Shown here one piece after another: positions 30,509-40,032 of a stretch of DNA of 64,000 nt. A model generated the notes under the pieces. It did no database searches. It saw nothing but the letters and a program-made list of their open reading frames with translations, and was not told where the DNA came from. The DNA is taken from assembly GCF_003057965.1 (NCBI RefSeq), contig NZ_CP020921.1, positions 1,623,001 through 1,687,000 of the forward strand, written 5' to 3'. The DNA comes from Thermodesulfobium acidiphilum (lineage in GTDB: Bacteria; Thermodesulfobiota; Thermodesulfobiia; Thermodesulfobiales; Thermodesulfobiaceae). The translations under genes were made by a program, and so were the position numbers. Numbering within the stretch: position 1 is the first letter of the stretch; every line of letters starts with the position of its first letter.

Positions 30509-30557
30509 ACACCACGGGACAAACTTTCCTTAACATTTTGTCCCGTGGTGTTTTTTT
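30509..30557 (+). terminator. Strong intrinsic terminator after the chemoreceptor gene
   Basis: ACACCACGGGACAAA at 30509-30523 pairs perfectly with TTTGTCCCGTGGTGT at 30537-30551 and is followed by a run of T. It ends inside the 3' flank of the convergent small Cys-protein gene. The stem has no run of T on the other strand. Confidence 0.9.
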
Positions 30558-36895: not shown

Positions 36896-37225
36896 TTAAA
36901 TACTCTTTATGCTTTTATATAATTCTTCGCGACCTTTAACCTGATCATTCAAAGTTTTTTTAGCATCGTTTACAAGATTTAACACAGATGGTAAATTTAT
37001 TTTATAAAACATCTTCTGCCCATCTTTTCTTGAATCTATAATGCCCTGTTTTTTTAAAATTCTCAGGTGCTGAGATAAGTTTGACTGTTCAACGCCTATT
37101 TCATTCAAAAGTTCACATACACATCTTTCCCTTTCACTCAACATCAACAAAATTTGAATCCTCAATGGGTGTGCAAGGGTTTTAAAAATTTCAGAAATTA
37201 ATTGATATACCAAAACCTTTTTCAT
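36896..37225 (-). CDS. ArsR-family metal-responsive repressor
   Basis: 109-residue winged-helix dimer. LAHPLRIQILLML, then ERERCVCELLNEIGVEQSNLSQHLRILKKQGIIDSRKDGQKMFYKI is the ArsR pattern. The CVC pair at the start of the recognition region matches the alpha3 metalloid/metal site (ELCVCDL in ArsR). It probably releases DNA when it binds As(III), Cd(II) or a similar ion. It stands alone; the nearest divergent gene is the MgtE-N/Nramp operon, about 170 bp away. No ars genes are adjacent. GGAGG lies before the ATG. Confidence 0.88.
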   Translation of the reverse strand: MKKVLVYQLISEIFKTLAHPLRIQILLMLSERERCVCELLNEIGVEQSNLSQHLRILKKQGIIDSRKDGQKMFYKINLPSVLNLVNDAKKTLNDQVKGREELYKSIKSI

Positions 37226-37331
37226 AAAATCCTCCTAAAATTTTAATTGGTACTTTTATAAGATAATAAAATTTTAACATTTATATTATTATATTATAAA
37301 ATTTTAGAAACAAAAATAGAAGTTTTAAATG

Positions 37332-37360
37332 TTTACACAGCAATTCAAATCTGTTAAACT
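37332..37360 (+). promoter_or_regulatory. Promoter of the MgtE-N/Nramp operon
   Basis: TTTACA at 37332-37337, 17 bp, TAAACT at 37355-37360, with TG one base before the -10 (extended -10). The transcript would begin near 37367, about 30 nt before a leader ORF and about 115 nt before the first main gene. Confidence 0.5.
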
Positions 37361-37386
37361 TATGCGAAAATATACTTTCTCATGGA

Positions 37387-37461
37387 GGTGATTTGCATGG
37401 ATGATATACCCGATTTATGCTTTATAAGTTTTCCCTTCAATAAACTTTTTTGCAAATCACC
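37387..37461 (+). promoter_or_regulatory. Long-range 11-bp leader hairpin covering the leader ORF start
   Basis: GGTGATTTGCA at 37387-37397 and TGCAAATCACC at 37451-37461 are perfect inverse complements with a 53-nt loop. The left arm contains the end of the leader's Shine-Dalgarno (GGAGG at 37384-37388) and the A of its ATG. The right arm ends 8 nt before the Shine-Dalgarno of the first main gene. The arrangement suggests translation-dependent RNA switching. Confidence 0.6.
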
Positions 37462-37519
37462 AAAAAGTGAGGAGGTATATTGTGTCATTTACAGGCGCTA
37501 TAACAGAATTCTACCTTAG
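37397..37519 (+). CDS. 40-residue leader ORF of the metal-transport operon
   Basis: Starts with ATG, 8 nt after GGAGG, an ideal spacing. The first codons give M-D-D-I-P-D, then an aromatic, Cys- and Lys-containing stretch. The frame runs through and past the GTG start of the next gene, in a different frame, ending with TAG at 37517-37519. It is thus a candidate regulatory leader rather than a functional protein. An acidic, Pro-containing N-terminus recalls leader peptides such as MgtL, where low magnesium makes ribosomes drop off. That parallel is inference. Confidence 0.45.
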   Translation: MDDIPDLCFISFPFNKLFCKSPKSEEVYCVIYRRYNRILP

Positions 37520-38777
37520 CCAAGAATTAAACAAGCCAATTTTAGATCCTGAAAACAGAAAAGTCGCCAACCTAAGAGATATTGCTGTTTGTTGGGACAA
37601 GAAAATTCCAGTTGGTAGAGGTATAAAATTCCTAAAGGACTCTAATAAGCTAATAAATATAAATCACATAAAGGAATGGAAGAAGGATGCAATAGTTTTA
37701 ACTACAAACCTTGAGAAAGCAGCTGATATCGTGGCAAGGGATGAAGACATTTATATAGTAAAGTGGCTTCTTGATAAACAGCTTATAGATCTTAAAGGCA
37801 AAAAGTTAGTTAGAGTAAACGACATAAAAATATCCTTCTATTCCAAAGACTTAGAAAAAAAGTTAATACTTCTTGCTATTGATGTAGGATTTTCTGGCAT
37901 TCTTAGAAGGCTTGGTATTAAGTTTTTAGAAAGTAGAATTCAACCCCAGCTAATAAGTTGGAATTATCTTGCCCCAATAAAAAAGAGAACCTCAAACTTA
38001 CAACTGGCAACAGAATTTGAGGGTTTAAAAAATCTTCATCCAGCTGATATTGCAGATATTATAGAAGAGCTAAGCCAACCAGACAGGGAGAAAATAATAG
38101 AAAGCCTTGATATAGAAAGCGCTGCAGAGGTATTAGCAGAAGCAGATATAGAAACTCAGGTAAACGTCATTGATTCTCTTGATGCAGATAAAGCAGCTGA
38201 CATTTTAGAAGAAATGCCATCTGATGACGCCGCCGACATATTAAGCGAGTTAAATGAAGAAAAATCTCAAGAAATATTAGAGCGCATGGATCCAGAAGAG
38301 GCAAGTGAAGTAATAGAATTGATGAACTATGAAGATGAAGACGTAGGATCGTTAATGACAAAGGATTATATAACGCTTACTGGAAATGAAACTCAGGAAG
38401 AAGCTCTGAACAAAATTAAAAAAATAGCTGAAGAAGTAGAGACTATTTACGTTTCATATATAGTTGATAGCGAAGAGAAACTAATAGGAGTAATATCTTT
38501 AAGGGAGCTATTAATCGCTAAGCCTGACGAAAAAATAAAGGATATCATGCAAAAAGACGTTATAAGTCTAAATCATTTTGATCATCACGACAAGGCACTT
38601 GAAATGTTTGCCAAATATAATCTCTTTACAATGCCTGTAGTAGACAACGAAAACAGACTTCTAGGAATAATTACAGTTGACGATATCTTAAGGCTTCTTA
38701 TACCAGACAGAAGTGACGCTGACACCTTCTCGAGATTTGACTCGCTGAAAAAGTTCTTGAGAGAAGGTGGTGAATAA
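37482..38777 (+). CDS. MgtE N-domain/CBS-pair protein without membrane part
   Basis: 431 residues, soluble. The N-terminal 170 residues hold two PRC-barrel-like segments (KVANLRDIAVCWDKKIPVGRGI and LKGKKLVRVNDIKISF). An MgtE intracellular superhelix follows (LHPADIADIIEELSQPDREKIIESLDIESAAEVL, repeated DKAADILEEMPSDDAADIL units), then a CBS pair (GSLMTKDYITL, IKDIMQKDVISL). The MgtE membrane channel is absent. The part is known to sense Mg2+ in MgtE, so it may gate or sense for the Nramp-like transporter coded next. The GTG start has AGGAGG 6 nt upstream; a GTG at 37467 precedes that site and is rejected. Confidence 0.85.
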   Translation: MSFTGAITEFYLSQELNKPILDPENRKVANLRDIAVCWDKKIPVGRGIKFLKDSNKLININHIKEWKKDAIVLTTNLEKAADIVARDEDIYIVKWLLDKQLIDLKGKKLVRVNDIKISFYSKDLEKKLILLAIDVGFSGILRRLGIKFLESRIQPQLISWNYLAPIKKRTSNLQLATEFEGLKNLHPADIADIIEELSQPDREKIIESLDIESAAEVLAEADIETQVNVIDSLDADKAADILEEMPSDDAADILSELNEEKSQEILERMDPEEASEVIELMNYEDEDVGSLMTKDYITLTGNETQEEALNKIKKIAEEVETIYVSYIVDSEEKLIGVISLRELLIAKPDEKIKDIMQKDVISLNHFDHHDKALEMFAKYNLFTMPVVDNENRLLGIITVDDILRLLIPDRSDADTFSRFDSLKKFLREGGE

Positions 38778-38778
38778 G

Positions 38779-40032
38779 ATGGAAAACAAACTCTCATTAT
38801 TTAAAAGAATATTGCTATTTTTAACTATAATGGGCCCTGGAATAATTACAGCCAACGTAGACAACGACGCAGGCGGTATTACTACCTATTCCATAACTGG
38901 TGCAACAACAGGTTATAAGCTCCTTTGGGTGCTGATTCCAATGACACTTGCACTTATAGTCGTACAGGAAATGGCTGCCAGAATGGGCGCAGTAACCAGA
39001 AAAGGTTTAGCCGATTTGATTAGAGAAAATTTCGGAGTAAAAATGACCATTTTAATACTCTTAGGGATACTTATAGCTGACTTTGGAAATACCATATCTG
39101 AATTCGCAGGCATTGCTGCAAGTATGGAAATTTTTAATATAAGCAAATATATTTCGATTCCTATTTGTGCAATATTTGTATGGTGGACAGTTTTAAAAGG
39201 CTCATATAAATTCGTAGAGAGAGTGTTTTTATTTGCATGTCTTGTTTATCTTTGTTATATACCATCTGCCTTTATGGCAAATCCACCGTGGGGAGAAGTT
39301 GCAAAAAATATAGTTATACCCCATTTAGAGTTTAGTCCTTCGTTCCTATCCATACTTATTGGTTTTATAGGAACTACCATTACTCCCTGGATGCAATTTT
39401 ATATTCAGTCATCTACTGTAGAAAAGGGATTAACAGAAAAGGAATATAAATATCTAAGATTAGACGTAATAATGGGGAACACAATGACAAACGTAATAAC
39501 ATTTTTCATTGTGGTTTGCTGTGCAGCAACTCTTTTTGTTCACAACGTCAACATAACTGACGCAAAGGATGCAGCACTTGCCCTTAAGCCATTTGCGGGA
39601 AATCTTGCAAGTACTCTATTTGCAATAGGACTCTTTAACGCCTCTATCTTTTCAGCCTGCGTACTTCCACTTGCTACCGCGTATTATGTATGTGAAGCAC
39701 TGGGTTTTAATGCAGGGCTTAACTTTACCTGGAAAGAGGCACCCGTTTTCTATGCTCTAACAACTTTTCTAATCTTTTTTGGTGCAACAGTAATATTAAT
39801 ACCCAAAGCTCCTTTAATACCTATAATGTTCTGGTCACAGGTTATAAACGGAGTTATATTGCCATTCGTACTCTTATACATGCTAAAAATTATAAACAAC
39901 AAAGATATAATGGGCGAATATACAAATTCAAGAACATTTAACATAGTAGCATGGCTCACAACTATTGTATTAATAGTCCTAACTTTACTCATGATAATCA
40001 CCTCTATCTTTCCAGGCTTACTACCATCATAA
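38779..40032 (+). CDS. Nramp-related divalent metal transporter
   Basis: 417 residues, about 11 membrane helices of LeuT type. GPGIITANVDNDAGG near the start fits the Nramp helix-1 motif, but the usual D-P-G-N becomes D30-A-G-G33. In helix 6 the metal-ligand Met of the M-P-H motif is replaced by Thr (T202-P-W). This suggests a hard metal such as Mg2+ rather than Mn2+/Fe2+, as described for Nramp-related magnesium transporters. The neighbouring MgtE-N/CBS gene supports that. I start at the ATG at 38779; a GTG at 38767 is possible. It overlaps or abuts the previous stop. Confidence 0.85.
   Translation: MENKLSLFKRILLFLTIMGPGIITANVDNDAGGITTYSITGATTGYKLLWVLIPMTLALIVVQEMAARMGAVTRKGLADLIRENFGVKMTILILLGILIADFGNTISEFAGIAASMEIFNISKYISIPICAIFVWWTVLKGSYKFVERVFLFACLVYLCYIPSAFMANPPWGEVAKNIVIPHLEFSPSFLSILIGFIGTTITPWMQFYIQSSTVEKGLTEKEYKYLRLDVIMGNTMTNVITFFIVVCCAATLFVHNVNITDAKDAALALKPFAGNLASTLFAIGLFNASIFSACVLPLATAYYVCEALGFNAGLNFTWKEAPVFYALTTFLIFFGATVILIPKAPLIPIMFWSQVINGVILPFVLLYMLKIINNKDIMGEYTNSRTFNIVAWLTTIVLIVLTLLMIITSIFPGLLPS

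Follow-up and report, generated by a model that had tools for sequence, protein, structure and literature searches.

A conserved acidic leader ORF and a long hairpin ahead of an NRMT-type transport operon in Thermodesulfobium: a candidate peptide-based Mg2+ switch

The 5′ leader of a magnesium-type transport operon in Thermodesulfobium acidiphilum holds both a short upstream ORF (uORF) and an inverted repeat, which raises the question of whether the operon is switched by a leader peptide or by a riboswitch, and in response to which metal. A preliminary description of this DNA had suggested a peptide-based switch for Mg2+ or another metal. We analyzed the leader within a 64-kb window, by which we mean the whole stretch of DNA under study (64,000 nucleotides of a 1.77 Mb genome), and compared it across four genomes of the genus (G000–G003, the window's genome and three relatives), the next nearest compared genomes sharing only the domain. 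The wider sample comprised eighty related operons, M-box loci from 245 additional genomes belonging to the class of Caloramator, and M-box loci of other groups.

The operon and its likely metal

The first gene (37482–38777, + strand, GTG start) encodes an MgtE_N domain and two CBS domains (Pfam MgtE_N, 1.3e-28; CBS, 1.8e-21), and by Pfam its product is MgtE_N/CBS only, the transmembrane MgtE domain being absent. The second (38767–40032, + strand) encodes an NRAMP-related transporter (Pfam Nramp, 1.3e-100) whose best PDB match was 7QIA, EleNRMT (4e-120); the next match, which was the best MntH, reached 2.9e-28. NRMTs are defined by a DxxG motif in helix 1 and TxxA/T in helix 6 (PMC8806188), and when the gene 2 product is aligned with 7QIA both metal-site motifs are found, as DAGG (DxxG) and TTIT (TxxT). 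MgtE-like fragments are known neighbors of NrmT genes, which are often M-box-controlled (PMC4072509).

CorA was found in none of the four genus genomes, versus 14 of 14 control genomes, and no M-box was found anywhere in the four. With an MgtE_N query, G000 yielded no strong second MgtE_N protein, its other matches having E values of 1e-6 or weaker, and MgtE is apparently missing from the genus. Since the genus is without CorA, the M-box and, apparently, MgtE, the NRMT operon plausibly provides its main Mg2+ importer, although a homologue on the NrmT branch, from A. capsulatum, acted as a manganese importer (PMC4072509).

Upstream and divergent lies a gene for an ArsR/SmtB-family metalloregulator with a CVC motif (36896–37225, − strand; Pfam HTH_5, 1.3e-17; NCBIfam HTH_metalloreg, 4.3e-27), which may add a layer of transcriptional control. 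Between this gene and the operon promoter, an AT-rich block at 37279–37306 (ATATTTATATTATTATATTATAAAT-like) is nearly invariant in the genus and is likely the ArsR operator.

The leader and its conservation in the genus

A consensus scan placed a promoter-like site at 37332–37360 (+ strand), with TTTACA at 37332–37337, a 17-nt spacer, the TG of an extended −10 and TAAACT at 37355–37360. From sequence only, transcription is predicted to start at about 37367, ahead of the hairpin described below and not downstream of 37461, the position of start that the preliminary description had named as contrary to its proposal. The uORF runs on the + strand from an ATG at 37397 to a TAG at 37519 (40 codons, MDDIPDLCFISFPFNKLFCKSPKSEEVYCVIYRRYNRILP, beginning MDDIPDLCFISF) and is preceded by a Shine-Dalgarno (SD) sequence at 37384–37392 (GGAGGTGAT, + strand, GGAGG at 37384–37388) located 8 nt from the ATG. 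It spans the main GTG start (37482) in a different frame; the uORF, its SD spacing and its overlap with the main gene are as originally described. An in-frame ATG at 37382 was considered as an alternative uORF start and rejected, as it is ACG in two species.

The 11-bp perfect inverted repeat that had been noted pairs 37387–37397 (GGTGATTTGCA) with 37451–37461 (TGCAAATCACC) on the + strand and, as stated, ends 8 nt before the main AGGAGG (37470–37475). Upon folding of the leader, we found that this repeat is only the inner part of a larger structure than had been described, since an outer helix had been missed in which 37369–37383 (AATATACTTTCTCAT) pairs with 37467–37481 (GTGAGGAGGTATATT), both on the + strand. 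The 3′ strand of the outer helix includes the main SD, which is thereby sequestered. The inner helix takes in part of the uORF SD and the A of the uORF ATG, the GGA of that SD falling in the internal loop and the remainder within the helix. Together the 15-pair outer and 11-pair inner helices form a 26-bp hairpin that fills the whole predicted 5′ UTR.

The predicted fold of 37330–37500 had an energy of −44.5 kcal/mol (z = −3.67), and none of 200 shuffles folded equally well. An inverted-repeat arm of at least 11 was reached in 2 of 2000 dinucleotide shuffles of the leader, and perfect repeats of the 11-bp size with a spacer of up to 60 occur only four times in the 64-kb window. The longest perfect short-spacer inverted repeat of the window lies elsewhere, at 30509–30551 (15 bp, ACACCACGGGACAAA, spacer 13). 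We also observed that, in each of the four genus genomes, uORF codons 4–5 (37404–37410, ATATACC) exactly complement GGTATAT in the main SD region (37473–37479), so that the main SD might pair here instead of in the outer helix.

No terminator-like site was found on the + strand; the 3′ strand of the hairpin leads directly into the main SD and start, without the U-tract of an intrinsic terminator or attenuator. Rfam covariance models, those for yybP-ykoY and other riboswitches included, gave no match to the leader at the gathering threshold nor beyond chance at E up to 10, and the M-box model (RF00380) had no match in the window. The earlier statement that this is not a known riboswitch thus holds, given that no Rfam family matches the leader and that the genus is without an M-box. 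A pattern search found the leader nowhere else in the genus genomes, where weaker DNA matches were at chance level.

The promoter with its spacing, the hairpin, the uORF, its SD and the gene order are all kept in 4 of 4 genus genomes. Conservation of the MDDIPD start had been proposed as a check, and MDDIPDLC proved identical in all four. Codons 9–18 diverge and contain a 3-nt in-frame gap, across which the frame is kept, and FCKSPK, which is encoded by the 3′ arm of the hairpin, is again conserved. The uORF is 40 codons long in two species and 48 codons long in the other two, and in each of them crosses the main start in another frame. Whether the MDDIPDLC codons are also constrained as nucleotides was considered, and the idea dropped: 6 of the 7 non-start codons are unchanged between clades, which is not unusual (codon identity in the main gene, 57%; binomial, about 0.12).

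Covariation of the arms had likewise been suggested as a check, and this check, too, gave a favorable result. Across the four genomes 103 of 104 helix cells are paired, and the variable pairs keep pairing except for one terminal pair broken in one species. The single compensatory change (C-G to U-A) and two one-sided, pair-preserving changes are all in the outer helix, while the inner 11-bp helix is invariant, so that covariation there is nil. As the sample consists of four genomes, two of them near-identical, with one compensatory pair and with one control (a) not exceeded, we regard this variation with pairing kept as supportive of the predicted hairpin and not decisive.

Acidic uORFs and their pairing in other leaders

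An M-box lies upstream in 17 of the 20 closest related operons. In Desulfosporosinus and Desulfitobacteriaceae, a uORF starting MDSGP follows AAAGGAGGTGG between the M-box and the main gene, and a Thermoanaerobacteraceae MAG has MDPDGS in the same position. Pelotomaculum (MDAGC) and Caloramator (MEGGP) have the uORF, and in their genomes the M-box was not found. Acidic starts between M-boxes and NrmT, mgtE, corA or mgtA genes include MDSGP, MDAGP, MDDG and MDCDP; M-box loci before mgtE, corA and mgtA-type genes, which in the wider survey were recognized by eye from protein starts, gave MDAGPSN, MDCDPD, MDSGPLP, MDSDPLP, MDADPG, MDFDPLP, MESDND, MDGGSSG and others.

To these loci we applied a mechanical rule for uORFs (ATG, SD core, spacing 5–11, 10–60 codons). 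Of the 28 distinct uORFs that it returned from the interval separating M-box and main start, 23 had Asp or Glu as their second residue, compared to 4 of 56 elsewhere in the same loci (Fisher 4.9e-12), in a set that is biased to Clostridia, was made non-redundant by peptide start rather than phylogeny, and has mechanically assigned main-gene starts. Residues 2–7 contain almost no Lys or Arg, and the consensus has Ser/Ala/Asp at 3, Gly/Asp at 4 and, in 43%, Pro at 5. Since GAT and GAC are equally frequent at Asp2 and Gly4 uses all four codons, selection acts on the peptide and not on the RNA. The same rule found no uORF in 15 of 17 short M-box leaders (at most 150 nt to the main start) and none in 26 of 61 longer ones. 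Nor is the feature universal, since NrmT operons in many other phyla are without such a uORF (e.g., L154–L183).

Details also differ between lineages: most Desulfosporosinus uORFs have a stop that abuts the main ATG, whereas in Thermodesulfobium the uORF overlaps the main start. The MDSSPERR... uORFs of two genomes of the Desulfosporosinus family (L237 and L238) overlap it as in the window, and occlusion by out-of-frame overlap would accordingly be specific to Thermodesulfobium and this one other group among those found. Two further leaders are recorded here as observations: L153:1501–2400 (G129, outside the Clostridia set) has an M-box and then a uORF, MDDGSSCIDRPPPARG, and L287:289–336, on the reverse strand of its locus, has an M-box leader uORF, MSDPLPRERRYWKRE, with the pattern of E. 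coli MgtL, an acid-proline start followed by basic residues.

Pairing around the uORF start was assessed by hybridizing positions −22 to +20 of each uORF, its initiation region, with the stretch that separates the uORF from the main start. The pairing was better than in shuffles at p ≤ 0.05 in 19 of 37 leaders, and in 30 less redundant leaders the cognate pairs surpassed in stability the expectation set by mismatched pairs, on average by 5 kcal/mol, a margin that none of 20,000 permutations matched. The uORFs of both sets were picked as acidic, so these sets test the pairing and not the peptide, for which the test is the comparison of 23 of 28 with 4 of 56. For instance, in the NrmT leader of Caloramator fervidus (L110:2820–3000) a perfect 15-bp repeat, GTGGTATTAATGGAA/TTCCATTAATACCAC, surrounds the start of the uORF MEGGPYPSS; the leader also has a possible CTCC anti-SD. 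Across the Desulfosporosinus leaders RNAalifold gave no consensus fold apart from a CUCC:GGAG anti-SD stem. In the Thermodesulfobium leader the pairing is present by fold prediction and comparison. Because uORF-start pairing recurs in other leaders, the 11-bp repeat of the window is, as judged from these predicted pairings, one case of a repeated architecture built from unrelated sequences.

A switch model, its rivals and known systems

In the free RNA modeled at 37 °C, the main SD had an unpaired probability of 0.00. With a ribosome held at the uORF start in the same model, this value was 0.95–0.99 in G002 and G003 and 0.19–0.25 in G000 and G001; opening in the window's own species was only modest (0.19), as the outermost AU-rich bases can still pair. 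With the ribosome at codon 5 or further the main SD stayed buried, in a model that ignores steric effects. Among 31 other leaders, ribosome masking made the main SD more accessible by over 0.2 in only 7 and less accessible in 3, and with effects so mixed the direction of switching is not uniform.

These observations are consistent with the following scheme, in which we infer that the uORF is translated, that ribosomes abort on it, that Mg2+ is the signal and which way the switch works. On the emerging RNA a ribosome could load on the strong uORF SD; with none on the uORF, the 26-bp hairpin would close and bury both the uORF initiation region and the operon SD (OFF). MDDIPD would be a start of the acidic/proline type that makes elongating ribosomes unstable, or pauses them, under Mg2+ shortage. 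In that state, ribosomes would initiate on the uORF and pause or drop off within the first codons, and would thus keep occupying the 5′ strand without crossing the main start, so that the main SD would be exposed and the transporter made (ON). At sufficient Mg2+ the uORF would be read through across the main start in another frame, which would hinder main initiation, and the hairpin would re-form behind the ribosomes (OFF).

We favor low-Mg2+ abortion or pausing on the basis of this folding with a ribosome at the uORF start and of the mgtQ and MgtL precedents. In mgtQ, Asp2 and Glu5 make translation of the uORF less efficient and that of mgtB more so, and a ribosome that stays on the uORF opens the first stem, which makes the mgtB RBS accessible (PMC8092293); in MgtL, drop-off at EPDP under low Mg2+ turns on mgtA (PMC11282234). 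MDDIPD has three acids and one proline and no long acidic run, and work on EttA indicates that early acids alone are not sufficient (PMC11282234). The peptide-based Mg2+ switch first proposed is supported in part: the occurrence of the same kind of uORF before NrmT, mgtE, corA and mgtA genes, mostly behind an M-box, strongly supports an acidic leader peptide for Mg2+ transport; ribosome abortion on MDDIPD and a response to Mg2+ are predictions of this reading. We have high confidence that the element is real, conserved and regulatory, and good confidence that the regulation is peptide-based, with ribosome destabilization as the best mechanism by which it might respond to Mg2+. The leader probably acts as a cis-acting translational switch with a translation-aborting acidic peptide like MgtL and MgtQ, here without a riboswitch.

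Plain translational coupling would require less of the peptide: ribosomes initiating on the uORF would open the hairpin and report translation capacity or temperature instead of Mg2+, the acidic start being incidental. In the folding model it is enough for any ribosome to occupy the uORF start for the hairpin to open, and the Desulfosporosinus stops that mostly abut the main ATG are a classic coupling layout, but coupling leaves unexplained both the acid at residue 2 in 23 of 28 uORFs, with its synonymous variation, and the restriction, as found here, to Mg2+ transporter leaders; we consider it unlikely. No more probable, in our estimate, is a sequence-specific arrest or drop-off peptide, in which M-D-S-G-P-like starts act through Gly-Pro or Asp-Pro chemistry, EF-P or a tRNA signal, and not through charge-driven dependence on Mg2+. 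The consensus is indeed narrow, with its restricted residues 3 and 4 and frequent Pro5, and more specific than "acidic", yet MDDGSS, MDGGSS and MDPDG keep the acids without Pro5, and the linkage to Mg2+ genes favors Mg2+ as the input.

That the hairpin alone senses Mg2+ or another ligand, as an unrecognized riboswitch with a non-functional uORF, seems very improbable. A strong conserved fold does bury the SD, and the loop sequence beside the inner helix is nearly invariant; against this, the element consists of one extended helix and a large loop of partly variable sequence, with neither junction nor pseudoknot, it has no Rfam match beyond chance at E up to 10, the uORF frame is preserved across the 3-nt gap, and acidic uORFs recur alongside unrelated hairpin sequences. 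Small proteins that modulate Mg2+ transporters exist, e.g., MgtS and MgtR, and the uORF might encode such a protein acting in trans on the transporter. We give this hardly any credence, as conservation is confined to the first 8 residues and to FCKSPK, which the hairpin encodes; the uORF varies in length and at its C-terminus and has no family match.

Peptide-based Mg2+ sensing by the ribosome is established in enterobacteria (MgtL, MgtQ). Tentatively, and at slightly less than even confidence, we propose that a widespread, hitherto unnamed class of acidic leader peptides (M-D-[S/A/D]-[G/D]-P) constitutes a second, ribosome-based Mg2+ sensor on importer mRNAs of Clostridia and other phyla, the initiation region of each peptide being held in a hairpin with sequence that precedes the main gene. 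It would usually stand in tandem behind an M-box, and in Thermodesulfobium-like bacteria, Pelotomaculum and Caloramator it would stand without one, having replaced the riboswitch. If so, such sensing would be common in Gram-positive and other bacteria, on four transporter families, and stacked behind an M-box it would let one mRNA read Mg2+ twice, as free ion and as ribosome stability. M-D-x-G/D-P would offer a simple, testable motif for finding Mg2+ transporter leaders that are without a riboswitch, and the M-box-less lineages would be clean test systems. The open-access literature searched held no description of the wider link between M-box and acidic uORF, which is apparently undescribed, although a study of an M. 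tuberculosis M-box uORF shows that parts of it had already been noticed (PMC12810186).

That uORF, uORF2/Rv1805A of the pe20 M-box, resembles the Thermodesulfobium element in being conserved, in having its initiation region masked by RNA pairing and in a conserved early proline, and it lies downstream of an M-box (PMC12810186). It differs in that the peptide is Mycobacterium-specific, and the study mentions neither MgtL nor ribosome destabilization; its role was unclear to its authors, and the proposal above might bear on why this M-box controls it. The M-box (RF00380) leaders of mgtE, corA, mgtA and nrmT precede the same class of genes (PMC4072509), and many carry an acidic uORF downstream of the aptamer; in contrast, Thermodesulfobium has the uORF-hairpin alone, with no M-box in window or genus. 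With the EleNRMT/NrmT transporters the operon shares the DxxG–TxxA/T site and an adjacent gene for an MgtE-like cytoplasmic partner (PMC8806188, PMC4072509), while for the Thermodesulfobium transporter we can only infer the metal specificity.

The features of MgtL/MgtQ-type leaders found here are a short ORF with a good SD before a Mg2+ transporter gene, as assigned by sequence, and acidic residues with Pro conserved in the first codons, in four genomes and in the wider 23 of 28 versus 4 of 56. Other members that we found (MDSDPLPGK, MSDPLPRERR and MDSGPLPSRK) presumably come still closer to MgtL in look. The EPDP motif of MgtL adds to this resemblance (PMC11282234), and MgtL of mgtA (MEPDP...) and the Thermodesulfobium uORF both lie in the 5′ leader of a known or presumed Mg2+ importer and begin with acidic and proline residues; MgtL works by way of Rho-dependent termination of transcription, whereas the predicted target in Thermodesulfobium is the main ribosome-binding site. 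Similarly, mgtQ of the Salmonella mgtCBRU operon is a short uORF with Asp2 and another early acid and a strong SD, located just before a Mg2+ transporter gene, and its start forms alternative pairings with RNA further downstream, the transporter RBS among them, in a case of translational control (PMC8092293). It has 8 codons and is intergenic in an enterobacterial operon, while the Thermodesulfobium uORF has 40–48 codons, lies in a 5′ UTR and overlaps the main start, in another phylum, before another transporter family, and in one long hairpin predicted to bury both ribosome-binding sites.
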